From assembly GCA_947487905.1 (NCBI GenBank), contig CANLAV010000015.1, positions 1-32,669 on the forward strand: 32,669 bases of DNA, in the 5' to 3' direction. The DNA comes from Bacteroidota bacterium (GTDB lineage: Bacteria > Bacteroidota > Bacteroidia > B-17B0 > Aurantibacillaceae). How positions within the stretch are numbered: position 1 is the stretch's first letter; every line of letters starts with the position of its first letter. Under the pieces are notes generated by a model. That model was not told where the DNA came from. It made no database searches and saw nothing but the letters and a program-made list of their open reading frames with translations. This document shows positions 1,827 to 23,802 of the stretch, in pieces. A program made the translations under genes and the position numbers.

Positions 1827-1850
1827 CATTCTACAATGATCAATAAACCT

Positions 1851-3911
1851 ATGAAAAACTTAAAAAAAGGAGTTCTAACCGCTAGTGCCGTTATTGCGTT
1901 TGTGTTTTCAATGAGTGCACAAAAAAATTATTTTAAAGATGCCGAAAAAGCTTACGACACGCATCAGTATTTTAATGCTATCGAATTATATAAGCAAGCT
2001 TATAGTAAAACGAAGAAAGCAGATGCAAAAGCTAAAATTTTATTTAAAACTGCTGATTCTTACCACCAAATAAACGACCTTAAAGGTGCTGAAACCTACT
2101 ATAATAAAGCAATTAAAGCAAAATACGCAGATCCAATCGTACTATTAAAATTAGCAGATTGCTTAAAAGCACAACAAAAATACCCTGAAGCCATTGTAGA
2201 ATACAATAACTACAAAAAAGAAGCTCCAGATGATGTAAAAGGTGAAAACGGAGCGAAATCTTGTGAATTAGCACAACAATGGAAAGACGCAAAAAACACA
2301 GTTGAAACGCGCTTAAAAGTTGAGAATGTAGCATCGATTAACACCAAAGAATCTGATTTTGGCCCTGCTTTTTCAGATAAAAAATACACTACGTTAATGT
2401 TTACCTCAACACGTCAAGGAGCTTTAGGCACAATTGACCTTACTACTGGGCAAAATCACTCTGATTTATACGAAACAAAAATTGACAAAAACGGAAAATG
2501 GAGTACGCCAGCACCATTAGGAACAACATTAGTATCAAAAATGAATGAAGGTGGTGCTTATGTTTCTAAAAAAGGGGATTTAATGTTTGTAACACGTTGC
2601 CCTGAAGCGAAAAACAAACAATTAAAATGTCAGTTATATGTATGCAAGAAAAAAGGCCCAACTTGGGGAGAACCTGAATTATTGCCATTCTGTATCGATA
2701 CTGTTTCATTCAGACACGCTGTCATTTCAAATGATGGAACAACATTGTATTTTGATTCAAGATTAGGTGGTGGATATGGTGAAAATGATATCTGGATGTG
2801 TACTTATAATTCAAAAAGTAAAGCCTGGGGAGAACCAGTAAACTGCGGGCCAAGCGTTAACACAGCAGGATTAGAAGGTTATCCGTATATTTCTGATGAT
2901 AATAAAACGTTGTACTTCTCTTCAAACACGCATTTAGGAATGGGTGGATTAGATATTTTTAAAGCAGAAAAAGACGCCAATGGCAAATTTACAAAAGCAC
3001 CAGAAAATTTAAAATCCCCAATGAACTCTGCTGGTGATGATTTTGGTATTGTATTTGAAGGAAAAAAAGTAAAAGGTTACTTCACTTCAAACCGTGAAGG
3101 CGGAAAAGGAAGTGATGATATCTATTCTTTTATATTGCCCCCATTATTTTTCAACTTAAATGGTAAAGTGGTAAGCACAGAAAACAATGAGCCCGTTCAA
3201 AATGCTTTAATCCGTTTAAAAGGGTCAAGTGGAGAAATGTTTGAATTTAAAACTCCTGCTGATGGAAAATACACCTTTAAATTAAAAGAAAATACATCTT
3301 ATGAAGTTACTGTAGCAACAGATAAAAATACGGTTTCAAAATCTTTTGTATTAGGGTTTTTAGCTAACCAAGAAATGGGGAAACTAACAACAGTTGCAGA
3401 AAATGAATCAAAAGACTTTGTTAAAGATTTTGCCTTAACACCTGTTAAAGCAGAAATTAGATTCCCAGCTGTACTTTATGAATTAGGTAAAGCTGATTTA
3501 AAACCAGAATCTAAGGACTCATTAAACTTTTTATACCAAACGTTAATTGATAATCCAGGGATTGTAATTGAATTACAAGCTCATACAGATAGCCGTGGTG
3601 CGGATGATAAAAACCAAACGTTATCTGAAGCTCGTGCTCAATCTTGCGTTGATTATCTAGCCAACGAGAAAAAAGTTCCATTAGCTCGACTTATGTCGAA
3701 AGGTTGGGGTGAGAAAAAACTTTTAGTGAAAGATGCTGAAATTGATAAGGCTCCAACAAAAGAAGAAAAAGAGGCTTTACACCAAAGAAATCGTCGTACA
3801 GTGTTTCGTATTTTAAATTGGGATTATCAAGATCCAAATGCTCCAAAATCTAACAAACCGGTTTACAAACCGCAAGTTTCTGGAGAAGAAAACTCAGAAG
3901 AAGTTGAATAA
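1851..3911 (+). CDS. PorE-like OmpA-family protein (TPR, PD40 propeller, CRD, OmpA)
   Basis: From ATG 1851 the protein is 686 residues; an in-frame ATG at 1836 would add five residues. It begins with a signal peptide (MKNLKKG, hydrophobic core, cut near SMSAQ). Counting from ATG 1836, TPR-like helices span about 30-150, WD40-like PD40 repeats 170-435 (for example SDDNKTLYFSSN at 353-364 and GGLDIF at 370-375), a carboxypeptidase-regulatory-like beta domain 440-535, and an OmpA C-terminal domain 540-660 with the peptidoglycan-contact residues D585 (HTDSRG) and R600. The order matches PorE of the type 9 secretion system, which links the secretion complex to peptidoglycan. Unlike PorE there is no lipobox cysteine, so it should be periplasmic or barrel-associated rather than a lipoprotein. 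Many paralogues share this layout, so PorE identity is not proven. It has its own promoter and terminator. Confidence 0.85.
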   Translation: MKNLKKGVLTASAVIAFVFSMSAQKNYFKDAEKAYDTHQYFNAIELYKQAYSKTKKADAKAKILFKTADSYHQINDLKGAETYYNKAIKAKYADPIVLLKLADCLKAQQKYPEAIVEYNNYKKEAPDDVKGENGAKSCELAQQWKDAKNTVETRLKVENVASINTKESDFGPAFSDKKYTTLMFTSTRQGALGTIDLTTGQNHSDLYETKIDKNGKWSTPAPLGTTLVSKMNEGGAYVSKKGDLMFVTRCPEAKNKQLKCQLYVCKKKGPTWGEPELLPFCIDTVSFRHAVISNDGTTLYFDSRLGGGYGENDIWMCTYNSKSKAWGEPVNCGPSVNTAGLEGYPYISDDNKTLYFSSNTHLGMGGLDIFKAEKDANGKFTKAPENLKSPMNSAGDDFGIVFEGKKVKGYFTSNREGGKGSDDIYSFILPPLFFNLNGKVVSTENNEPVQNALIRLKGSSGEMFEFKTPADGKYTFKLKENTSYEVTVATDKNTVSKSFVLGFLANQEMGKLTTVAENESKDFVKDFALTPVKAEIRFPAVLYELGKADLKPESKDSLNFLYQTLIDNPGIVIELQAHTDSRGADDKNQTLSEARAQSCVDYLANEKKVPLARLMSKGWGEKKLLVKDAEIDKAPTKEEKEALHQRNRRTVFRILNWDYQDPNAPKSNKPVYKPQVSGEENSEEVE

Positions 3912-6176: not shown

Positions 6177-7721
6177 CTAAAGGATTTGTTTCACTTTAAC
6201 GCGCTGTCCTCTTTGCAATTGAGCATTTTGATTTAAATCATTCATCTTAGACAACTCTTTCACGCTGATGCCAAACTTTTTTGAGAGTCTGTAAAGTGTT
6301 TCACCTTTCTCAACTTTGTGATATTTGTATTTAGCATTGCTGCTTGAATTATCGGCTAATTTTTGTTTCCCATCAGAATGAATGGACGTATCTGTTTTAG
6401 AAGCTAAATTAGATGGAGCATCCTTAGGTGCGTCAGATTTAGAATCGCTATTAACAGGTGTTACAACTGGTACATTTTGCTTCACATACACAATTAATTT
6501 TTTTCCAGAACGTAGTCCTTTCTTTCCAATGTAATTCCACGATTTCAAATCTGCTACTGTTACACCGTACTTGCGAGCAATAGCACTTATTTTTTCTCCG
6601 TTCTTTACTGTATGAGTTTTTTGTATTTCTTTTACAGCAATCGCGCTTTCTTGAACTTCTAATTTTTGAGATTTAATAGCGGCATAAATTTCTAACTCAT
6701 TACTCAAAAACATCCCAATTTTTGCTTTTGGAAGCGTTAAGGCATTTCCTCCTTCAGGAATCACATTTTTTCGATATTGTGGGTTAAAATAAATGACTTC
6801 CTCAACAGGCACATCTAGAGCAGCAGAAATCTGTTCAAAAGACATGCTTTCTTTTACAATCGCAGTATCTACTTCAAAATAGGTTTTGCGCGGCATAGAA
6901 GCGTAAATGTTATGCTCCACCGGATAATTCATCACATAGTTTGCTGCAATAAATGCTGGAACATACGCTTGTGTCTCTGTTGGTAAAAACGGTCTGATTT
7001 CCCAATACGTTTTCTTTCCGCCGCTTCTACGAATAGCCTTGCTGATAGTTCCAGGTCCGGCATTGTAAGCCGCTAATACCATTTGCCAATCTCCAAACAT
7101 ACTGTATAAACTCTTTAAATACTCTGCTGCCGCTTCCGTTGCCTTGTAAACATTAGAACGCTCGTCAATATAGGAATTAACCGTTAAGCCATACATTTTA
7201 CCCGTTGGATACATAAACTGCCATAAGCCAGTAGCTCCGCATTTAGAGCGAGCATTTGGGTTTAATGCAGATTCAATAACAGCTAAGTGCTTTAATTCTA
7301 ATGGAATATTGTGTCGATCGAAAACTTCTTCAAACATTGGATAGTACAATTGCGATAAGCCCATCATACGGCTCACCAACGTACGTTTTCTCATGGCGTA
7401 TAACTCAATAAATCCTTTTACATGAGGATTGTATACCAAATCAAAAGGAGAATTAGCGTCCAACTTAGCTAAACGACTTTCATAAACAAAATCTTCAAAT
7501 CGAGGAACACTATCTTCGGCGTATTTATACTTGTTTTGTTTTGGATAAATGGGCTTTGCCAGGGCTTTTTCCAATAATTTTTGGTTTGACAAACTATCTA
7601 ACATGGCTGCCACTGGATTATCGGTAATTGTAAGCCCGTTTTGACCAAACAGAGTTACGCTTGCAAACAAAACAAACGTTAATAACGTTCTTTTGAATAT
7701 GTTTTTTAAGAAGATTACCAT
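6177..7721 (-). CDS. MltD-type lytic transglycosylase with LysM domains
   Basis: A 514-residue periplasmic murein hydrolase that cleaves the MurNAc-GlcNAc bond with formation of 1,6-anhydro-MurNAc. A signal peptide (residues 1-26, cut after LFG-Q) is followed by an SLT/lysozyme-like domain at about 115-270, with catalytic Glu150 in AVIESALNP, then GATGLWQFM (162-170) and LAAYNAGPGT (216-225), the standard MltD/Slt motifs. After a weak LysM-like stretch (about 280-332) come two clear LysM domains, at about 369-413 and 466-512 (YHKVEKGETLYRLSKKFGIS), joined by a Ser/Asp/Lys-rich linker. LysM domains anchor the enzyme to glycan strands. No lipobox cysteine is seen, unlike MltD of Escherichia coli. 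Single-gene unit. Confidence 0.93.
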   Translation of the reverse strand: MVIFLKNIFKRTLLTFVLFASVTLFGQNGLTITDNPVAAMLDSLSNQKLLEKALAKPIYPKQNKYKYAEDSVPRFEDFVYESRLAKLDANSPFDLVYNPHVKGFIELYAMRKRTLVSRMMGLSQLYYPMFEEVFDRHNIPLELKHLAVIESALNPNARSKCGATGLWQFMYPTGKMYGLTVNSYIDERSNVYKATEAAAEYLKSLYSMFGDWQMVLAAYNAGPGTISKAIRRSGGKKTYWEIRPFLPTETQAYVPAFIAANYVMNYPVEHNIYASMPRKTYFEVDTAIVKESMSFEQISAALDVPVEEVIYFNPQYRKNVIPEGGNALTLPKAKIGMFLSNELEIYAAIKSQKLEVQESAIAVKEIQKTHTVKNGEKISAIARKYGVTVADLKSWNYIGKKGLRSGKKLIVYVKQNVPVVTPVNSDSKSDAPKDAPSNLASKTDTSIHSDGKQKLADNSSSNAKYKYHKVEKGETLYRLSKKFGISVKELSKMNDLNQNAQLQRGQRVKVKQIL

Positions 7722-7846
7722 GGCTTATGTTTTTAATTATAACGAAAGGTTTGTAAATCGTTACAATCCAATTTAGTTGTTAGACAATAATAAAAAATAA
7801 TTCGCATAAATAAAAGTTAAAGAACTTTAATTTTTAACTTAGCGCT

Positions 7847-8281
7847 GTGAAAAACAAATCGATAGAAGAACCAAAGATGTATTTCGAAAGAAATACAATC
7901 GTCATTTTAGTTTTGGCAAGTTTAGCCATTACAGCAGATTATTTTGGCTACACCATACTTATACAACCAAATCCTTGGGGAATTTTTTTAGCCATACTTG
8001 GCTTGGCATTAACAATGCAAACGTTGTGGTTAATTTTAAATCCTTACACACTTGTGTATGATGATAAATTTGAAATCAAACAATCGTTTTTTTTAAATAA
8101 AGAATATTATTTTCTCGATATAAAATCGATTGAATTAATTCATCAAAAGATGATTATTACATATAATGATTTAGAGAAAGATGCATTACCACTATTTGGA
8201 ATTAGAAACGCTCATAAAAAAACAATGTTTGAGCATTTAAAAAAACACATTGATTTAAATATGATTGGACGAGACTTTTAA
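7847..8281 (+). CDS. Small membrane protein with two TM helices and a PH-like tail
   Basis: 144 residues from GTG 7847; ATG 7877 (MYFERNT) is an alternative start giving 134 residues. TAACTTAG at 7835-7842 looks like a -7 box and ends only 5 bases before the GTG, which favours the ATG if it is the promoter. Two adjacent hydrophobic helices (IVILVLASLAITADYFGY and WGIFLAILGLALTMQTLWLI) are followed by a soluble beta-rich part, LVYDDKFEIKQSFF ... YFLDIKSIEL, the layout of bacterial PH-like domains. No enzyme motif is visible and the function is unknown. It is the first gene of an operon with two Sco-like genes and a TM2 gene, 2 bases before the next start. Confidence 0.65.
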   Translation: MKNKSIEEPKMYFERNTIVILVLASLAITADYFGYTILIQPNPWGIFLAILGLALTMQTLWLILNPYTLVYDDKFEIKQSFFLNKEYYFLDIKSIELIHQKMIITYNDLEKDALPLFGIRNAHKKTMFEHLKKHIDLNMIGRDF

Positions 8282-8283
8282 TT

Positions 8284-8931
8284 ATGAAAAAAAAATTACT
8301 TCTATTTTCGATTCTTTTTCTTCCCACTTCCATTTGGTTGTTCCTAGAATTAAGCACCATCAATTCTAAAAAACTACCTTATTATGGTCCGAAATTATTG
8401 AATGGAGCAGACACTGTGTATTATACCGTAAACGCTAACTTTAATGAGTTTAAATCAAATCAAACGTTAAATACTTTAACGCTCGACACCAACAACTATC
8501 CCCTATTTGCAGTTAGTTTTATAAAGCAAACATATAAAAAGGATAATTATCGAATGGCAGGATTAAGTGAATACATTCAATTTAAAAAAGAAAAAATTTC
8601 AGAAATTCCTTTTGTGATTATAACAGAATGTAATGATTCAAATGATTGCTTTAGAGAGTTTGAATTGTTGCAAACAAAAACTCCATCCGTTAAAAATTAT
8701 TATTGGCCAAGCTCGTCTTTTGATAGTTTAAACTATTCATACTTTATTGAAAAACCTTATTACGTTGACTATAGTTTTTTTGTTTTAGTGGATAGTAAGC
8801 GTCACATCCGCGGTTACTACGACGCACGCTATATTTCTGAAATAAAGAGACTGATTGAAGAATACCAGCACCTTCGATTAAAACACGAAAAGAAAAATTT
8901 AATTAATCAAAATAAAATTGAAAATAAATAA
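8284..8931 (+). CDS. Degenerate Sco1/SenC-like protein lacking the copper ligands
   Basis: 215 residues with an N-terminal membrane or signal helix (LLLFSILFLPTSIWLFLEL). The body resembles the neighbouring true Sco: LPYYGPK...DTVYYTV parallels LPVFGEK...DTLYHSV, and FVLVDSKRHIRGYYDAR parallels FVLIDSKKRIRGFYDGT. However, there is no CxxxC; the only cysteines are in TECNDSNDCF, in a different place, and the conserved histidine before FVLVD is replaced (VDYSFFVLVD against FLHSELFVLID). It should keep a thioredoxin-like fold without Sco-type copper binding. It overlaps the next gene by TAATG (8929-8933). The most likely origin is duplication and divergence of the adjacent gene; the role is unknown. 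Confidence 0.7.
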   Translation: MKKKLLLFSILFLPTSIWLFLELSTINSKKLPYYGPKLLNGADTVYYTVNANFNEFKSNQTLNTLTLDTNNYPLFAVSFIKQTYKKDNYRMAGLSEYIQFKKEKISEIPFVIITECNDSNDCFREFELLQTKTPSVKNYYWPSSSFDSLNYSYFIEKPYYVDYSFFVLVDSKRHIRGYYDARYISEIKRLIEEYQHLRLKHEKKNLINQNKIENK

Positions 8932-9560
8932 TGAACTCCTATTTAAAATACCTTGTTTTCTCGCTAGTACTCTTTGCTTGTTCAGATAATAAAACTAATC
9001 AGGAAAAACTACTTCCTGTTTTTGGCGAAAAAAAAGTAGATAAGAAAGGCGATACACTATATCATTCTGTAAGCCCATTTTTATTTGTGAATCAATTCGG
9101 TGAAAACGTAACAGAAGAGACTGTAAAAGGTAAAATTTATGTGGCTGATTTTTTCTTTGCTACCTGCGAAAGCATTTGCCCAAAAATGAGTTCACAATTG
9201 GTTAATGTGCAACAAGCATTTTTAAAAGATAATGATGTTTTGATATTATCTCATACCGTAAACCCAATGCACGATAGCGTGGCTGTTTTGAAAAAATATG
9301 GCGAACGATTTGGCGCTCAAAAAAATAAATGGCATTTACTAACGGGTAATAAAAAAGAAATATACGACATGGCTCGTTTCAGCTACTTAGTCAATGCTTT
9401 AGAAGCTGATGGTTCGGCAGAAGGATTTTTACACAGTGAACTTTTTGTTTTGATCGATTCGAAAAAAAGAATTCGCGGTTTTTATGATGGCACTGATAGC
9501 GTTACTGTAGTTAAATTAATTTCAGACATTAAATTATTAAAAACAGAAATGCCGTTTTAA
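8931..9560 (+). CDS. Sco1/SenC/PrrC-family lipoprotein (copper chaperone/thiol protein)
   Basis: 209 residues. A lipobox (SLVLFAC, Cys17) predicts a lipoprotein on the periplasmic side. The thioredoxin-like Sco domain contains the copper/redox motif C79-x3-C83 (FFATCESICPKM) and the distal ligand His168 (FLHSELFVLID), the full set needed for Cu binding. Sco proteins help assemble the CuA site of cytochrome c oxidase or act as thiol-disulfide reductases. No oxidase gene is in the window, so the client is unknown. The gene is coupled to both neighbours by TAATG overlaps (8929-8933 and 9558-9562), which ties it closely to the degenerate Sco upstream and the TM2 protein downstream. Confidence 0.9.
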   Translation: MNSYLKYLVFSLVLFACSDNKTNQEKLLPVFGEKKVDKKGDTLYHSVSPFLFVNQFGENVTEETVKGKIYVADFFFATCESICPKMSSQLVNVQQAFLKDNDVLILSHTVNPMHDSVAVLKKYGERFGAQKNKWHLLTGNKKEIYDMARFSYLVNALEADGSAEGFLHSELFVLIDSKKRIRGFYDGTDSVTVVKLISDIKLLKTEMPF

Positions 9561-15015: not shown

Positions 15016-16356
15016 TTAATTAGAAATTCCAAAAAACTCGTTATAACTAACTTCTTTAGTTTCTAGCTTACAATTTGTTTTTAAAACGTCTAATACTTTT
15101 TTACTGTAGATTCCTTCAAAGATTTTTTGTGCCTCTTCTTGCTTTGCTAAAATAGAATCAGCGATTTTTGCAACTTCCGTTTCATCAGGAGATTGCCCAT
15201 AACGAGCATATTGACTACGAACAAAATTTCCAGCTTCTGCTTTAGCTTCATCAATGCCAACTGTAATATTATTTCCTTTAATGATTTTATTCTCAATTAA
15301 TTTCCACTTCATCGATGTAGCATAAGCAGGATACTCAGCTTCTAATTGTTCTTTTGTTAGGGGTTTTTCATTAACAGCCATTAACCAACGTTTTAAGAAA
15401 TCATCTGGAAGTGCGATGTTTAATTTTTGAACTAACGTTTTTTCTACTCCTTCAACAAATTTACGATCCGTATCCTGAGTAAACATGATTGCTAACTCCG
15501 CTTTAATTTTATCTCTGAATTCAGCTTCTGAATTGATAACACAAGCACCATACAAACGATCGAATAATTCTTGGTTTAATTCAGCCTCTTCCATGCGCGC
15601 GATATTGCGAACCGTTAACTGTAAATTAGAATTAAACATTTCTGCCATTTCTTTATCAATGCCTAAAGAAATAGATTTGTCAACAGCAGAGTCGTACAAT
15701 TCATTTGCATTAATAATAATTTTTGACTCTTTAGTTGCGCCAACTAATTTAGCTTTCGCTGCCTCATTTTTTAATCTATCAATGCCGATGCTTGTTGATT
15801 TAAAAATTCCACCAGCCACAATATTATTATCTGCATCTAATTCAACAATATCAATATAAAGTACATCCACTTCAGTTGCTACTTCTGGATTCGAAGGCTT
15901 TCCGTAATTACGTTTAACATCCTTTAAATATTTGTCTACAAGCTCATCGTCAATTTTAACCGTATTGTATTCAAATGTATGAGATTTATCAAGTGCCAAT
16001 TCAAATTGAGGGCTTAATCCAACTTCATAATTAAAAGTCCATTCTTTTTGATTTTCAAAATCAATCACATTGTCTTCCTTTGGCATCGGATTACCAAGAA
16101 TTTCGATGTTATTTTCTAAAATATACGATTGAAGGCTAGAATTCAATACTTTATTAACTTCTTCAACTAATATTCCTTTCCCGTATTGTTTTTTTATCAA
16201 ACCAACAGGAACTTTACCCGCTCTAAAGCCAGGTAATGTTGCTTGTTTCTGAACTTTTTTAATCGCATTCTCAACTTTCGTTTCGTAATCAGCTGGCGAT
16301 AAAGTAATGCTTAACTCTGCATTTAACGCATTAATGTCTTTTTTAGATATATTCAT
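15016..16356 (-). CDS. tig: Trigger factor, ribosome-associated chaperone
   Basis: 446 residues, the usual length. The ribosome-docking signature GFRAGKVP is at residues 43-50. The N-terminal ribosome-binding domain (about 1-115), a strongly diverged FKBP-like PPIase domain (about 150-245) and the helical C-terminal chaperone domain (about 250-440) can be traced. The PPIase part is recognisable only by position, as I recall is common in Bacteroidota trigger factors. It binds L23 at the tunnel exit and shields nascent chains. The gene is monocistronic here, with its own promoter and terminator; clpP/clpX, often downstream, are absent. Confidence 0.93.
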   Translation of the reverse strand: MNISKKDINALNAELSITLSPADYETKVENAIKKVQKQATLPGFRAGKVPVGLIKKQYGKGILVEEVNKVLNSSLQSYILENNIEILGNPMPKEDNVIDFENQKEWTFNYEVGLSPQFELALDKSHTFEYNTVKIDDELVDKYLKDVKRNYGKPSNPEVATEVDVLYIDIVELDADNNIVAGGIFKSTSIGIDRLKNEAAKAKLVGATKESKIIINANELYDSAVDKSISLGIDKEMAEMFNSNLQLTVRNIARMEEAELNQELFDRLYGACVINSEAEFRDKIKAELAIMFTQDTDRKFVEGVEKTLVQKLNIALPDDFLKRWLMAVNEKPLTKEQLEAEYPAYATSMKWKLIENKIIKGNNITVGIDEAKAEAGNFVRSQYARYGQSPDETEVAKIADSILAKQEEAQKIFEGIYSKKVLDVLKTNCKLETKEVSYNEFFGISN

Positions 16357-16556: not shown

Positions 16557-18002
16557 ATGCACAAGCCGATTCATACACTCGCATTTATCATTGCAACAAG
16601 CTTTGTGCTTATTGCTATAGCGCTTATTATCCCAGATAATGGCATAGCAATTTCCGAAAGCGTTTGCATTAAATTTCCAAGCTTTCACTCTTTATTTTCA
16701 TCTCAATCACCACAAAAAAAAGACATTACTACAATTATTGCCTTAGCGGATAGTGTTGAACATAATGCAACACCAAAGGTAGATACTTTGTTAAATGACA
16801 AGAAAGAGCCAGTTATAAAATTAAACACTAGTATACAATACAAAGATGAATCGCGACAATCTCTCAGTCAATTTTTTAATGCCTTGCAAAACATTTCCAA
16901 CGAAGCAAATAGTATTCGCATATTACATTATGGTGATTCGCAAATTGAAGGAGATAGAATAAGTGATTATCTGCGAATGAAACTGCAGGATCAATTTGGA
17001 GGAGCTGGCCCTGGCTTAATATCATTCATGCCTGTTGCACCAAGCGTCATTAATAAACTATCATGGAGCGAAAATTGGGACAGATACCCCGTTTTTATAG
17101 GAAAAGATAAACGTGTAAAACATTCTAGCTTTGGTATTTTAGCGCACATGACACGCTTTTCAAAATACATCGAATTACAAGATACAACTCAACATAAATC
17201 AGCATGGATAAAAATGACAACGAGTAAAAATGGTGGTATGCAAGCCGCATCGTATCAAACCATAAAATTATTTTACGGAGGAGCCAAAACAAAAACGCAA
17301 ATTGATTTTTACGAAAATGGCGTTTTAAACAACTCTGATTCTTTATCAGCAGGTGGCTACTTCAATGTCAAAGAATATCATTTAAATCAAAAGCCATCAT
17401 TACAAGAATTTAAATTCAAAGGTAAAGATAGTCCAGATTTTTACGGCGTTTCTTTAGAAGGAGAAAAAGGTGTTATGGTTGATAACATAGGTTTAAGAGG
17501 TAGCTCTGGAACTTTTTTTAACCAAATAAATTTTAATCAACTTCAACAGTTTTACGCTTACCTAAACACTAAATTGATCATTCTTCAATTTGGGGGAAAT
17601 ACATTGCCATATATTTCAACTCCTGAACAAACCATTCAATATGGTAGGTATCTCAAAGCCCAAATATTAACCATTAAAAAACTAGCTCCACAAGCATCAC
17701 TCTTAATCATTGGCCCAGCAGATATGAGCGTAAAAGTTGGCACCTCATACGAAACACATCCTCAATTAGAAGATTTACGTGATGCCATTAAAGAAACAGC
17801 CTTTGAAACGGATTGTGCTTTTTTTGATTTATACAATTGCATGGGTGGAAAAAATAGTATGGTTAGTTGGGTTGATGCTGGTATCGGCGCCAAAGATTAT
17901 ATTCACTTTAGTGCTGGTGGCGCACGAAAAATTGCAGTATTGTTATACACATCGTTAATTAATGACTATTCGAATTACACACAATTAAAAAAGACACTTT
18001 AA
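16557..18002 (+). CDS. SGNH/GDSL-hydrolase family protein, membrane-anchored
   Basis: 481 residues. An N-terminal hydrophobic helix (TLAFIIATSFVLIAIALII, 7-25) acts as anchor or uncleaved signal. After a 90-residue linker comes an SGNH domain: block I HYGDSQIEGDR with nucleophile S128, block III FGGN with N348, and block V D447-x-x-H450 in KDYIHFSAGG. Between blocks I and III is an inserted beta-rich domain (about 150-330), as in the two-lobed AlgX-type or DUF459-like proteins. With the MBOAT gene two genes downstream it probably takes part in O-acetylation or deacetylation of an extracellular polymer, as AlgX/AlgJ do with AlgI. First gene of a three-gene operon; 4 bases separate it from the next start. 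Confidence 0.82.
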   Translation: MHKPIHTLAFIIATSFVLIAIALIIPDNGIAISESVCIKFPSFHSLFSSQSPQKKDITTIIALADSVEHNATPKVDTLLNDKKEPVIKLNTSIQYKDESRQSLSQFFNALQNISNEANSIRILHYGDSQIEGDRISDYLRMKLQDQFGGAGPGLISFMPVAPSVINKLSWSENWDRYPVFIGKDKRVKHSSFGILAHMTRFSKYIELQDTTQHKSAWIKMTTSKNGGMQAASYQTIKLFYGGAKTKTQIDFYENGVLNNSDSLSAGGYFNVKEYHLNQKPSLQEFKFKGKDSPDFYGVSLEGEKGVMVDNIGLRGSSGTFFNQINFNQLQQFYAYLNTKLIILQFGGNTLPYISTPEQTIQYGRYLKAQILTIKKLAPQASLLIIGPADMSVKVGTSYETHPQLEDLRDAIKETAFETDCAFFDLYNCMGGKNSMVSWVDAGIGAKDYIHFSAGGARKIAVLLYTSLINDYSNYTQLKKTL

Positions 18003-18006
18003 ATAC

Positions 18007-19239
18007 ATGATTAAAAATAGTCATTCACGCATATTACTTTTTTTGCGTTACTTAACTCTTATGCTAATTACAACTAATCTTGTTCATGCTCAACAGTATC
18101 CGTTTATAAACCAACAAGCAAGCGTTTTACATTTAAGTAAAGATAGTAGTGCGTTCATGAATTTTTATAAAAAAATAGATGAACTAAAAACTGGACATCG
18201 AAATAAAGTAAGCATTGTTCATTTTGGTGGATCACATATTCAAGCTGGATTTTGGACAGAAGTACTGATGGATGGATTTCAAAAGATGGGAAATTTTAAA
18301 GGTGGTGGCACATTCATTTTTCCATTTAAAATTGTAAAAACAAACAACCCTTCGTTTTTTAAATCATTTACAACTGGGCAATGGATTCGGAAACGAAATG
18401 CCCTATCAAAAGAAATGTGTGATAACCTTGGAATGGCTGGAATAGCTGGAATTACAAACGATTCAGAAAACACATTTGGTTTTAAATTACTGCCAAACAA
18501 CCACCACCAAACATTTAACTCGTTGAGAGTTTACCATAACTTTAACCCAAGTTTTGAATTTTCTATAACAGAGCAAGTAGGTTTGCACTTCACACGCAAG
18601 GATGATAAGGCAAAAAGCTATACCGAATTTATATTCGAATCATACATAGATTCCATAAACTTTAAACTCATTAAAAAAGATACCTTAATCCGTGATTTTA
18701 TGTTACGTGGATTTAGTATCGAAAATTCAAATCCAGGATTTTACTATGCCTCTATTGGAGTAAATGGAGCGAGTACATCATCCTACCTAAAATGTCAAGA
18801 ATTTGTCAATGAGCTATCTGGCTTACCTCCAGATTTAGTTATTTTTTCTTTGGGAGTCAACGATACACATGCGCCAAATTTTTCGAAACAACAATTCATT
18901 GCTAATTATGATAGCCTAATCACATTAGTAAAATTGGCATCTCCCAACTGTGTGTTTTTATTTACAACAGTAACGGATAATTACATGACAAGGAAAGCAT
19001 CCAATAAAAGGCCCATAAAAGCACAAGAAGCTATGTTTGAACTCATGGAAAAACATCATGCCGCTGTATATGATTTATACGAAGTGATGGGTGGTTATAA
19101 ATCTATCAGTAAGTGGTATAAAGCGGGGATTGCAGCCAAAGATAAAGTTCACTTCAATGGAAAGGGTTATACACTTCTAGCAAACCTCATGTTCGATGCT
19201 ATTTACAAGAGTTACCAATATAATACGAAAATAAAATAA
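18007..19239 (+). CDS. SGNH-like secreted protein with GGS variant of block I
   Basis: 410 residues. A signal peptide (LLFLRYLTLMLITTNLVHAQ) is followed by an SGNH-like domain. Block I reads VHFGGSHIQAG, with S76 but Gly instead of the usual Asp of GDS. Block III is SLGVNDTHAPN (N285, D286) and block V is D379-x-x-H382 in KDKVHFNGKG. The catalytic Ser, Asn, Asp and His positions are therefore all filled. It is similar in plan to the upstream SGNH protein (the ends AGIAAKDKVHF and AGIGAKDYIHF correspond), so the two are likely diverged duplicates with a shared job. It is followed after 23 bases by the MBOAT gene. Confidence 0.8.
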   Translation: MIKNSHSRILLFLRYLTLMLITTNLVHAQQYPFINQQASVLHLSKDSSAFMNFYKKIDELKTGHRNKVSIVHFGGSHIQAGFWTEVLMDGFQKMGNFKGGGTFIFPFKIVKTNNPSFFKSFTTGQWIRKRNALSKEMCDNLGMAGIAGITNDSENTFGFKLLPNNHHQTFNSLRVYHNFNPSFEFSITEQVGLHFTRKDDKAKSYTEFIFESYIDSINFKLIKKDTLIRDFMLRGFSIENSNPGFYYASIGVNGASTSSYLKCQEFVNELSGLPPDLVIFSLGVNDTHAPNFSKQQFIANYDSLITLVKLASPNCVFLFTTVTDNYMTRKASNKRPIKAQEAMFELMEKHHAAVYDLYEVMGGYKSISKWYKAGIAAKDKVHFNGKGYTLLANLMFDAIYKSYQYNTKIK

Positions 19240-19262
19240 ACGCGTTATTGATTGTATGAATT

Positions 19263-20930
19263 ATGCTAAATTCAATTATTGACTTTTTAAAACCTTATCT
19301 TCTTTATACGAAAGGAGAACCCATTTTATTTACCCAACTTTATTTTTGGGGGTTCTTTGGTATTGTACTAGCACTCTATACGTTAGTCTACAAAAAAAAC
19401 ACATGGCGTACCTTTTATTTACTACTCATCAGTTTTTTCTTTTACTACAAAACGAGTGGTGTTTTCTTACTGCTCATGATTTTTACTATTATCAGCGATT
19501 ACAATTGGGGGAAACTTATTTATAAAAGTCAATCCGAATCACACAAAAAAATATACCTCACATTCAGCCTTGTTTTAAACCTAACTTTATTGTGTTATTT
19601 TAAATATGCTTACTTCTTTACCGAGAGCATCAATCAATTAGCTGGAACTGACATCTCATTTTTTAATTACTTCTCCCAATTTAGTAATACATATCTGGGG
19701 ACAAAAGACCCTGTGGATAAATTAATTTTACCTGTGGGCGTTTCATTTTTTACATTTCAATCCATTTCTTACACAATCGATATGTATAGGAGAAAGGTAA
19801 CTCCTGTAAACTCTATTTTTGATTACGGATTTTTTGTTTGCTTCTTTCCTCATCTTGTAGCGGGGCCAATTGTCAAAGCAAATGAATTTTTATACCAAAT
19901 TTACGAGCCCTATAATTTAAAAAGGAAAGAATTTGGTTTAGCTATTTTTTGGATATTAAACGGACTTGCCAAAAAAATGATGGCCGATTACATCGCTATT
20001 AATTTTATTGATAGAATTTTTGACAACCCAAATTATTATTCGGGTGTTGAAACGATGTTTGGTATTTTTGGCTACTCTCTACAAATTTATGCAGACTTTA
20101 GTGGATACACAGATATTGCCATAGGAATCGCTTTACTGTTAGGATATCGCTTAAAAACAAACTTCAAATCACCTTACAAAGCTCAAGACGTGAGTGAGTT
20201 TTGGAAACGCTGGCACATCTCTCTTTCTACTTGGCTCAAAGATTATTTATACATCCCACTCGGCGGAAATAAAAAAGGAAGCATTGGATCCTATCTATGC
20301 ATAGCATTTTTATCATTTGTACTCGTTTTACTGACTGGAAAGATATGGCTGTTATATGTTCTTCTCTTTACAGCGTTATTACTAGTTATTCTTGCTTTCT
20401 CATTTCCAAAAATCAAACAAAGCATCAACACGAACATTAATTTATTAGTAACGATGTTACTTGGTGGTTTTTGGCATGGCAGTTCGTGGCTATTTATCAT
20501 CTGGGGAGGATTAAATGGCTTAGGTTTAATTGTACATAAGCTATGGCAGCGCTATTCCCCGTTTAAAAACACACAATCTTTCCTCGTAAAAGGAATTTTA
20601 GTAATGGTAACATTAACTTTTATTAGTTTCACGAGAATATTTTTTAGAAGTAATAGTTTGGAAACCGTTAGTAATATCTTTGATAGATTACAAAACCATT
20701 TTGGAGCAAACTTACTGCTTGATGTTATAAAAGGATATTGGATTGTGTTTTTAATTATGTTTACTGGATATCTCATTCATTGGATTCCAGAACGCATAAA
20801 AGAAAATTACAGAACACGGTTCGCTGAACTTCCATTGCCGATAATGGCATTTGTATCTGTCGTGTCAATCATTTGTATTTATCAATTAATGAGTGGTGAA
20901 ATGCAACCCTTCATTTATTTTCAGTTCTAA
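19263..20930 (+). CDS. MBOAT-family membrane O-acyltransferase (AlgI/DltB-like)
   Basis: 555-residue polytopic membrane protein. Family motifs are clear: FPHLVAGPIVKANEFL (195-210), YADFSGYTDIAIGIALLLGY (276-295), SEFWKRWHISLSTWLKDYLY (311-330, with H318), IPLGGNKKG (331-339) and LLGGFWHGSSW (399-409) with the essential-type His405. Such proteins move acyl groups across the membrane to exopolysaccharide, peptidoglycan or teichoic acid via a partner SGNH protein. Between IPLGGN and GGFWHG sits a hydrophobic block of about 50 residues (341-390) that adds about two helices and is longer than in AlgI as I recall it. Third gene after two SGNH genes; the acceptor polymer is not indicated by the context. 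Confidence 0.92.
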   Translation: MLNSIIDFLKPYLLYTKGEPILFTQLYFWGFFGIVLALYTLVYKKNTWRTFYLLLISFFFYYKTSGVFLLLMIFTIISDYNWGKLIYKSQSESHKKIYLTFSLVLNLTLLCYFKYAYFFTESINQLAGTDISFFNYFSQFSNTYLGTKDPVDKLILPVGVSFFTFQSISYTIDMYRRKVTPVNSIFDYGFFVCFFPHLVAGPIVKANEFLYQIYEPYNLKRKEFGLAIFWILNGLAKKMMADYIAINFIDRIFDNPNYYSGVETMFGIFGYSLQIYADFSGYTDIAIGIALLLGYRLKTNFKSPYKAQDVSEFWKRWHISLSTWLKDYLYIPLGGNKKGSIGSYLCIAFLSFVLVLLTGKIWLLYVLLFTALLLVILAFSFPKIKQSINTNINLLVTMLLGGFWHGSSWLFIIWGGLNGLGLIVHKLWQRYSPFKNTQSFLVKGILVMVTLTFISFTRIFFRSNSLETVSNIFDRLQNHFGANLLLDVIKGYWIVFLIMFTGYLIHWIPERIKENYRTRFAELPLPIMAFVSVVSIICIYQLMSGEMQPFIYFQF

Positions 20931-20932
20931 AA

Positions 20933-21637
20933 CTACCACTCGGCAGGACCAAATCTTTTTGTAAGTTCATGATTAGGCATCAAAACATAAAAAAGCTGAT
21001 CAAACCACAACATCAATTTAAACGCGTAAGTAGGTGAATTTAGTTTTTCGCCGATTTTGTCTGTGTTCTTTAAAGTAAATCTATATCCAATGTCAGTTCC
21101 AAGCCCAAACCACTGCGTTAATTTGAACTGAACAGAAACGCCAGGCTCGTAAAGTAATAAAAAATGTTTTTCTGTTTGAATCTTCTTCCTATTGTCTAAA
21201 TGTTCAAACCAAGCCAAGCCAGTACCTAGCTGCAGTGGCACACTTAACTGCCAATGCTTTGTTTTATGAAAAACAAAATCTGTGTAAAACGCCACATAAC
21301 CAAATTTTAAATAATTACTAACGATTTCTTTGTTTCCTAATGCATTCGTTATTTCTAATTTATCACTAACTCCAGAATCTAACCAACTATAACCAATGCC
21401 CGCTTTTAATTTTTTTTGAAATACTAAGCCTAAACGAACACCGCTGACTTTCACTAACTCGTTTCTCAAAAAAGAATGACGGGATTCTAAACGAATATCG
21501 ATACTCGGCTTTTTTTTAGTAGCCGATTTTATAGAATCTAAAAATTGCGCTTGAGTTACCGAAGCACAAAAGATTAAAAAAAATATGTAGAGGTATTTCA
21601 CAGCATAAAAATAAACTAGATTTTTAAATGTTAGCAT
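20933..21637 (-). CDS. Secreted protein, probable outer-membrane beta-barrel
   Basis: 234 residues. The signal peptide is YLYIFFLIFCASVTQAQ, preceded by a longish N-terminus, so a start at an internal codon nearer the helix is possible. The body consists of amphipathic strands (SGVRLGLVFQKKLKAGIGYSW, LKFGYVAFYTDFVF, WFGLGTDIGYRFTL), consistent with a barrel, and ends FGPAEW. No named family is recognised. The stop lies 2 bases from the stop of the convergent MBOAT gene with no terminator between, so the 3' ends of the transcripts probably overlap. Confidence 0.6.
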   Translation of the reverse strand: MLTFKNLVYFYAVKYLYIFFLIFCASVTQAQFLDSIKSATKKKPSIDIRLESRHSFLRNELVKVSGVRLGLVFQKKLKAGIGYSWLDSGVSDKLEITNALGNKEIVSNYLKFGYVAFYTDFVFHKTKHWQLSVPLQLGTGLAWFEHLDNRKKIQTEKHFLLLYEPGVSVQFKLTQWFGLGTDIGYRFTLKNTDKIGEKLNSPTYAFKLMLWFDQLFYVLMPNHELTKRFGPAEW

Positions 21638-21687: not shown

Positions 21688-23802
21688 ATGAGTCAATTAC
21701 ATTCTTTTCTAGACACTCCCATTGGATACCTTAAAGGTATTGGTCCTTTACGTGCCGAGGGTTTACAAAAAGAACTACATATCTTTTCTTATAAAGATTT
21801 AATGACGCATTATCCATTTCGATACGTTGATAAAACAAAGTTTTATAACATCAACGAAGTGAATGAAGATGGCGCCTCATACCAACTGAAAGGATTTATT
21901 GAAAGCATGGAAACCCTTGGCGATAAACGCAGTAAACGGTTAGTTGTGAAATTTAGAGATAGAACAGGCGTTATTGAATTAGTTTGGTTTCAAGGACATA
22001 AATGGATGTCAGAAAAATTAAAACTTCAAACAGAATATATTGTATACGGTAAAGCAACACAGTTTAATTACAAGTTTAATATATCTCATCCCGATATTGA
22101 ACTAGTTTCTGAAGAAATTATAAAGCAGCAATCTGCTTTTCAATCTGTATATCATAGTACCGAAAAATTAAAAAACAAAAATTTAGATAGCGACGGAATT
22201 AGAAAAGCACAGAGGGTCTTAAATCAGCAACTCAACGAACACATCCTTCCTGAAACGCTTACGCCAAGTATTATTTCTGACTTTAATTTTATTTCTAAAT
22301 ACCACGCTTTAAAACAAATTCATTTTCCGGATTCAAAAGAACTTTTAGAAAAAGCAACCTATCGTTTAAAATTTGAAGAGTTGTTTTATAACCAATTAAA
22401 ACTACTTCGATCAAATACACTGAGGCAAGAAGCCATCAGAGGTTTTGTATTTAATAAAGTAGGTGATGTGTTTAATTCTTTTTATAAAGACCATCTACCT
22501 TTTGAATTAACCAATGCACAAAAAAGAGTGGTTAAAGAAATACGCATTGACATGGGTTCGGGCAAGCAAATGAGCCGATTAGTGCAAGGTGATGTGGGAA
22601 GTGGGAAAACGTTAGTAGCTTTATTAAGCATGTTGTTAGCCATCGATAATGGCTTTCAAGCTTGTTTAATGGCGCCTACCGAAATATTAGCAAAACAACA
22701 TTTTGAAACCATATCAGAATTAGTAAAACCATTGCACTTACATGTTGCATTGCTCACAGGATCTTCTAAAACGAAAGAACGACGCGTCTTACATCAATCT
22801 TTAGAAACTGGAGAAATTCATATATTGATTGGCACACATGCATTGATTGAAGATACCGTTGTTTTTAAAAATTTAGGTTTGGTTGTGATTGATGAACAAC
22901 ATCGGTTTGGTGTGGCGCAACGTGGAAAAATGCATAAAAAAAATGTGCAACCTCCGCACGTATTAATTATGACTGCAACACCTATTCCGCGCACGCTGGC
23001 CATGACGCTTTACGGCGACTTAGATACATCGATTATAGATGAATTGCCGCCAGGCAGAAAACCAATTACCACGATGCATTTTATGGAAAGCCAACGCTTA
23101 CGTTTAATTGGATTCATGAAAGAACAAATTGCACTAGGCCGACAAGTTTATGTGGTGTATCCATTAATACAAGAAAGTGAAAAACTTGATTTTCAAAATT
23201 TACAACATGGTTACGATTGTTTGGTAGATGATTTTAAACCACCTCAATATCAAATTAGTATTGTTCATGGCAAACTCAAACCACAAGAAAAAGAACTTGA
23301 AATGCAGAGGTTTATTAATAAACAAACGCAAATCATGGTTGCTACAACGGTGATTGAAGTGGGTGTAAATATTCCAAATGCAAGTGTGATGGTTATTGAA
23401 AGTGCCGAACGATTTGGTTTAGCACAACTCCATCAATTACGTGGACGTGTTGGAAGAGGATCCGACCAATCGTATTGTGTGTTAATGACGTCTTACAAAT
23501 TAGGGGCAGATAGCAAACTCCGCATGGAAACGATGGTAAGATCAAATGATGGATTTGAAATTAGTGAAGTAGATTTAAGATTGCGTGGACCTGGCGATTT
23601 AGATGGTACACAACAAAGTGGTGTACTCGATTTTAAAATTGCAGATTTAGTACACGACGGACAACTATTACAATTAGCTCGCTCTACAGCACAAGCTATT
23701 TTAAATGAAGATGAACAGTTAACGATACCCGAAAATCAATTATTAGTGCGACAGTTAGCAGCGCAAGCACAAAGTAAAAGTTCGTGGAGTAAAATTGGAT
23801 AA
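21688..23802 (+). CDS. recG: ATP-dependent DNA helicase RecG
   Basis: 704 residues, the usual length. An N-terminal wedge/OB domain (about 65-145) that binds branched DNA is followed by an SF2 helicase core: Walker A GDVGSGKT (301-308), DEQH (402-405), TATPIPRTLAMT (429-440), then the C-terminal helicase lobe with VATTVIEVGVNIPNAS and HQLRGRVGRG. The enzyme remodels replication forks and Holliday junctions by fork regression. The start at 21688 fits the RecG N-terminus (helix-hairpin-helix-like PIGYLKGIGPLRAEGL). A small unknown gene follows 25 bases later and may be cotranscribed. Confidence 0.96.
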   Translation: MSQLHSFLDTPIGYLKGIGPLRAEGLQKELHIFSYKDLMTHYPFRYVDKTKFYNINEVNEDGASYQLKGFIESMETLGDKRSKRLVVKFRDRTGVIELVWFQGHKWMSEKLKLQTEYIVYGKATQFNYKFNISHPDIELVSEEIIKQQSAFQSVYHSTEKLKNKNLDSDGIRKAQRVLNQQLNEHILPETLTPSIISDFNFISKYHALKQIHFPDSKELLEKATYRLKFEELFYNQLKLLRSNTLRQEAIRGFVFNKVGDVFNSFYKDHLPFELTNAQKRVVKEIRIDMGSGKQMSRLVQGDVGSGKTLVALLSMLLAIDNGFQACLMAPTEILAKQHFETISELVKPLHLHVALLTGSSKTKERRVLHQSLETGEIHILIGTHALIEDTVVFKNLGLVVIDEQHRFGVAQRGKMHKKNVQPPHVLIMTATPIPRTLAMTLYGDLDTSIIDELPPGRKPITTMHFMESQRLRLIGFMKEQIALGRQVYVVYPLIQESEKLDFQNLQHGYDCLVDDFKPPQYQISIVHGKLKPQEKELEMQRFINKQTQIMVATTVIEVGVNIPNASVMVIESAERFGLAQLHQLRGRVGRGSDQSYCVLMTSYKLGADSKLRMETMVRSNDGFEISEVDLRLRGPGDLDGTQQSGVLDFKIADLVHDGQLLQLARSTAQAILNEDEQLTIPENQLLVRQLAAQAQSKSSWSKIG

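Follow-up and report, generated by a model that had tools for sequence, protein, structure and literature searches.

A very probable peptidoglycan O-acetylation cluster with two Ape1-fold SGNH proteins in a Bacteroidota bacterium

Which polymer is modified by an operon that encodes two SGNH proteins and one MBOAT, and how is the work divided between the two SGNH proteins? The question arose from a stretch of 32,669 nucleotides from a Bacteroidota bacterium (hereafter the window), in which an original prediction, made from the sequence, had proposed a candidate polymer O-acylation operon. The operon and its neighbours are as follows.

16557..18002, + strand: SGNH-A, an ORF of 481 aa with a Lipase_GDSL_2 match; Ape1 fold, N-terminal anchor; position of Ape1b
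18007..19239, + strand: SGNH-B, an ORF of 410 aa with a Lipase_GDSL_2 match; Ape1 fold, probable signal peptide; position of Ape1c
19263..20930, + strand: PatA-type MBOAT, an ORF of 555 aa with an MBOAT family match
15016-16356, - strand: trigger factor, divergent, upstream of the operon
21688-23802: recG-like helicase, read from the sequence, downstream of the operon

The tight SGNH-SGNH-MBOAT arrangement was borne out by the three ORFs, which lie on the same strand and are separated by 4 and 23 bases, and by their Pfam matches. Lipase_GDSL_2 scored 36.7 bits for SGNH-A and 51.6 bits for SGNH-B (cut-off 32.9), and MBOAT scored 78.6 bits for the third gene (cut-off 27). A promoter scan returned 23 sites, with 21.6 expected by chance. 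The end of the MBOAT gene is followed after 2 bases by a convergent gene (20933-21637, - strand) for an exported 234-aa protein, which matched no Pfam family above cut-off and gave weak PagL and TP0733-type hints. Elsewhere in the window, a 691-aa protein (1836-3911, + strand) matched TPR, PD40 and the OmpA family; peptidoglycan could be bound by a domain of the OmpA type.

All three genes were present in 76 of the 87 genomes of the window's order and were collinear (A-B-MBOAT) in 69 of the 87, which argues that the trio is not a chance arrangement. Counted with paralogues, SGNH-A matched in 80/87 genomes (E 1e-12), SGNH-B in 82/87 (E 1e-20) and the MBOAT in 87/87 (E 1e-20). The collinear trio was found in 0/7 genomes of one genus of the order (g10), of which 5/7 had SGNH-A and SGNH-B adjacent and the MBOAT elsewhere or without an orthologue found. 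Among 80 named loci chosen by SGNH-A, the best 80 of at least 570 confirmed, the trio was complete in 66, these counts being of related genomes and not of independent events. The three-gene order, a search for which across Bacteroidota genomes had been proposed as a check, was thus found to be conserved. The trigger factor gene adjoined the trio in the closest relatives only; the flanking genes varied while the trio stayed constant. In a sample of 395 genomes from the phylum, the MBOAT was detected in 122 at E 1e-80, and SGNH-A and SGNH-B, each at E 1e-30, were detected in 75 and 67, respectively. Among the matches listed, most relatives were MAGs or isolates of Bacteroidota and Chlorobiota. 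Usable proteins were absent from 3 (SGNH-A), 11 (SGNH-B) and 25 (MBOAT) of the 80 named loci, and the alignments included 71 of 77, 67 of 69 and 53 of 55 usable proteins, respectively. Three loci (L173, L174 and L175) had the order A-MBOAT-B, or a convergent B gene.

AlphaFold2 models of both SGNH proteins were of high confidence (pLDDT 92.6 for SGNH-A and 94.2 for SGNH-B), and the best Foldseek matches of both were the Ape1 proteins of Neisseria meningitidis and Campylobacter jejuni (E 2e-22 and 3e-24). SGNH-A matched N. meningitidis Ape1 with Z 37.7 (rmsd 2.8, 341 residues) and C. jejuni Ape1 with Z 34.9, the next family reaching Z 16.9; for SGNH-B the values were Z 37.8 (rmsd 2.5, 342 residues), Z 35.1 and Z 16.4. 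Both models share with these Ape1 structures (4k3u; 8gld, 8gkd) the fold, the inserted beta-rich domain and the catalytic residues, at approximately 18–23% identity, with two copies here and one there. The beta-rich domain is inserted after the strand of the catalytic Ser, where 187 residues lie between Ser128 and Gly315 of SGNH-A and 178 residues between Ser76 and Gly254 of SGNH-B, with strands throughout. The two-lobed architecture on which the original prediction depended was thus present in both predicted structures, in Ape1-like form. Plain lipases or esterases were ruled out, since the Ape1 matches were far above those to other SGNH esterases.

The catalytic Ser, block II Gly, block III Asn, Asp and His were invariant in 72 SGNH-A rows and 68 SGNH-B rows, in the ordinary S-G-N-H order with Ser first and DxxH last. 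The catalytic Ser codons are as follows.

16938..16940, + strand: catalytic Ser128 codon of SGNH-A
18232..18234, + strand: catalytic Ser76 codon of SGNH-B

In SGNH-A, G126-D-S128-Q, G315, N348, D447 and H450 were conserved in every row of a 27-row and a 72-row alignment. Motif I was accordingly GDSQ in 72/72 and 27/27 rows; the former count is partly a selection effect, as one search pattern contained GDSQ, and the 27-row set was not picked by that pattern. G74, S76, H77, G254, N285, D379 and H382 of SGNH-B were conserved in 68/68 rows, with GGSH as motif I. Motif VII is DYIH in SGNH-A (DYIH, DYTH or DYVH in relatives; the motif published in 2005 is Dx(V/T)H) and DKVH in SGNH-B, which fits the published form. 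The N-termini differ. SGNH-A begins with a hydrophobic helix at about residues 7–25, followed by a linker; mean hydropathy in this helix was at least 1.6 in 70/72 members, and an AxAQ-type cleavage site was found at the N-terminus in 0/72. SGNH-B is probably exported via a signal peptide, with the cleavage site read from the sequence as VHA-QQ.

The nearest solved structures to the MBOAT by sequence were DltB. Its C-terminal tail carries the features of an acyl shuttle.

20910..20927, + strand: FIYFQF, a C-terminal FXYXXF motif with F550 and Y552 invariant in 54/54 rows
20916-20918, + strand: Tyr552 codon, the proposed acetyl carrier

The tail FIYFQF itself occurred in 45/54 MBOAT rows, and H318 and H405 were invariant in 54/54. 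FXYXXF is described as an acyl-shuttle motif, and the Tyr of C. jejuni PatA was shown to be acetylated (PMC12148441). The FXYXXF motif and an invariant His are common to this MBOAT and the PatA/PatB systems of Neisseria and Campylobacter covered in that source. Several related loci varied around the MBOAT. In L173, L174 and L175 the tails were PIYLQF or PIYLKF, which retain the shuttle Tyr but have Pro in place of the first Phe of FXYXXF. Two loci (L164, 7252-10214; L165, 7239-10201) had two tandem MBOATs behind one SGNH-A gene, both ending in PFIYFQF. In L167 a gene for an AMP-binding enzyme (7537-9252) lay between SGNH-A and the MBOAT, and ORFs similar in size occupied the same place in L168-L171; the acyl group there could be other than acetyl.

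The combination of an MBOAT with two SGNH proteins is also the layout of the alginate system AlgI/AlgJ/AlgX (PMC4148444), in which one SGNH protein would act as acceptor and the other as final transferase for an exopolysaccharide. Such a relay is very improbable here, as both SGNH proteins have Ape1 folds and the S-G-N-H order. AlgJ, in contrast, is described as circularly permuted with a DxH motif (PMC4148444), and the alginate system differs further in its ALGX family and in its alginate genes. No polysaccharide synthase is adjacent to the operon, as the original prediction had observed. Moreover, the same genome has two other MBOAT genes, each followed with a 1-base overlap by a gene for an ALGX-domain SGNH protein.

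L072 6200-8946: MBOAT and ALGX gene pair, same genome; MBOAT tail FIYFRF
L073 1457-4191: MBOAT and ALGX gene pair, same genome; MBOAT tail FIYFRF

Since the other two MBOATs are each paired with an ALGX-domain gene, exopolysaccharide-type acetylation seems to be separately served. The relay was rejected for the operon on residue order and family.

The trio instead very probably constitutes a peptidoglycan O-acetylation (OAP) cluster. OAP clusters were described in 2005 by Weadge, Pfeffer and Clarke (PMC1199599), with ape1b-ape1c-pat reported in Bacteroides thetaiotaomicron (proteins NP_811593-811595), Bacteroides fragilis and Porphyromonas gingivalis, and O-acetylated peptidoglycan was measured at 27.0% in B. 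thetaiotaomicron and 69.4% in B. fragilis (PMC1199599). The order is the same here, with a pair of Ape1-type genes ahead of the MBOAT gene, and all of these organisms are Bacteroidota. An OAP cluster is defined by a pat MBOAT gene that clusters with one or more ape genes, and the window holds such a set. The individual proteins depart from the published classes: the 2005 motif I is GDS(H/F), whereas the window has GDSQ (A) and GGSH (B), and the 2005 Ape1c is without the segment of approximately 100 residues after motif I, where SGNH-B has its inserted domain. In the related operons L176 and L177, motif I of A was GDSF and that of B was GDSH. Orthology to the 2005 Bacteroides and Porphyromonas genes rests on gene order, folds and these related operons. 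We accordingly class the operon as an OAP cluster without assigning its SGNH proteins to Ape1b or Ape1c in the strict sense; it is a known type of system, published in 2005, in a new lineage. The polymer O-acylation operon of the original prediction was in this respect upheld by the conserved gene order and the two-lobed SGNH proteins.

O-acetylation of peptidoglycan blocks lysozyme and lytic transglycosylases. A candidate for such an enzyme was encoded in the window.

6177..7721, - strand: MltD-like lytic transglycosylase, 514 aa, SLT and two LysM domains; 9 kb from the operon

The statement that no peptidoglycan gene lies beside the operon held locally; within the same window it did not. Among the named loci (the best 80 of at least 570), in 42 of the 80 the gene preceding SGNH-A, in the same orientation, belonged to one family, and in 40 of these 42 it lay within 300 nt of SGNH-A. 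The one member of this family that was scanned combined an SLT domain with two LysM domains. The window transglycosylase shared up to 40% identity with this upstream gene of the relatives and is likely a functional partner of the operon. In the 14-kb loci from the window's own order, no transglycosylase was found beside the operon. For lytic transglycosylases to act, the C6 hydroxyl must be free (PMC1199599), and full function of N. meningitidis Ape1 is described as depending on the transglycosylase LtgA (PMC7083599).

LysM domains also occurred on relatives of SGNH-B, at the C-terminus, in L063 (5351-6886), L064 (1669-3198) and L065 (4727-6214), near MBOAT paralogues. The genomes with these LysM-fused relatives (G084, G006) gave no SGNH-A match, and L063 also carries a gene for a 313-aa protein that belongs to no Pfam family. 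Taken together, the upstream transglycosylase, the LtgA dependence, the need for a free C6 hydroxyl and the LysM domains on SGNH-B relatives point to peptidoglycan as the target. The target polymer had been considered not evident in the original prediction; this no longer stands, as peptidoglycan is indicated by the Ape1 folds, the link to an SLT-LysM gene and the 2005 cluster. A literature search, mostly outside subscription journals, returned no report of this cluster being linked to a transglycosylase gene in Bacteroidota.

We hypothesize that the MBOAT would move acetyl from acetyl-CoA across the inner membrane, where Tyr552 of the FIYFQF tail would carry it. From the tail, the acetyl group would go to the active-site Ser of one of the SGNH proteins, which would then attach it to the C6 hydroxyl of peptidoglycan MurNAc. 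The second SGNH protein would take the acetyl group off again, so that lytic transglycosylases could act there. In C. jejuni, deleting ape1 increased peptidoglycan O-acetylation from 12.5 to 35.6%. That the acyl group is acetyl, that it sits at C6 of MurNAc and which way each enzyme works are all inferred.

Which of the two SGNH proteins adds the acetyl group? The Gram-negative enzymes of the textbooks are PatA, PatB and Ape1, with PatB (DUF459) as the known transferase. PatA/PatB systems of Neisseria and Campylobacter have PatB, whereas no DUF459 protein was found above the 27.2-bit cut-off in the window's genome (a draft, 95% complete). The best match there was SGNH-B, at 15.8 bits and below that cut-off; the Pfam scan gave 16.2 bits for SGNH-B and no DUF459 (PF04311) match to SGNH-A. 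Nor was any further Lipase_GDSL_2 protein found in this genome besides SGNH-A and SGNH-B. Across the phylum sample, a DUF459 match at E 1e-8 was obtained in 29 of 395 genomes and exceeded 150 bits in only 3; the 29 include 4 of the 75 genomes with SGNH-A. PatB not being found in the genome, one of the Ape1-fold proteins likely does the transferase job. Structural comparisons did not return PatB chains among the Foldseek top 50 of either model; PatB structures matched SGNH-A over the SGNH core alone (Z 14.7) and were absent from the structural match list of SGNH-B, though neither absence argues against a likeness to PatB.

Replacement of the block II Gly, by Ser or Asn in PatB, is described as the transferase mark of PatB and OatA. 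This mark was absent, with Gly in 72/72 SGNH-A and 68/68 SGNH-B proteins, and neither block II nor the hydrophobic residue before the catalytic His separated SGNH-A from SGNH-B. As this Gly is kept in esterases, both SGNH proteins might be esterases with the transferase encoded elsewhere. We consider this very improbable: the genome held neither DUF459 above cut-off nor further Lipase_GDSL_2 (with 95% of it in the draft, a missed gene is possible), and its two ALGX proteins each adjoin their own MBOAT.

We lean slightly towards SGNH-B as the O-acetyltransferase and SGNH-A as the esterase. Weak DUF459 similarity was detected in 41 of 68 SGNH-B members compared with 7 of 72 SGNH-A members, and motif I of SGNH-B is altered. 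In addition, SGNH-A and the MBOAT occur in another family without a B-type gene, and a small SGNH gene with a single domain lies ahead of A there at 8 of the 11 loci examined (L161-L171, the exceptions being L166, where the match is weak, and L169 and L171, with none). This small gene led us to drop the reading that SGNH-A functions alone in these loci. LysM-fused SGNH-B-like proteins accompanied an MBOAT without SGNH-A in L063 and L064. It is the DUF459 similarity, the altered motif I and the replacement of SGNH-B while SGNH-A stays that favour SGNH-B as the transferase.

The same OAP cluster could operate with the roles reversed, the anchored SGNH-A being the transferase and the exported SGNH-B the esterase. 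A PatB-like membrane anchor is present on SGNH-A and not on SGNH-B, and its uncleaved N-terminal helix is as described for PatB (PMC12148441). However, a retained anchor is also described for some Ape1 proteins (PMC1199599), SGNH-A is the constant partner where the second SGNH protein varies, and SGNH-B is nearer to DUF459. We regard the reversed assignment as possible and rather doubtful. Of the two alternatives offered by the original prediction, a two-step relay or a transferase/esterase pair, the pair is favoured, and a relay of the AlgJ/AlgX type is less likely given the ordinary S-G-N-H order and the ALGX proteins elsewhere. The literature search, mostly outside subscription journals, also returned nothing on the transferase of PatB-less clusters.

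More generally, we tentatively propose that in most cluster-bearing Bacteroidota PatB is missing and an Ape1-fold SGNH-B with GGSH became the transferase beside a paralogous esterase, often with a transglycosylase in the operon. If true, an esterase fold was turned into a transferase, and the operon would often encode the transglycosylase that is controlled by the acetyl groups. With the transglycosylase gene in front of the cluster, the presumed control of wall turnover could be tested as a single unit. Much of the phylum, possibly including gut Bacteroides, may then have a transferase that is misnamed as an esterase.
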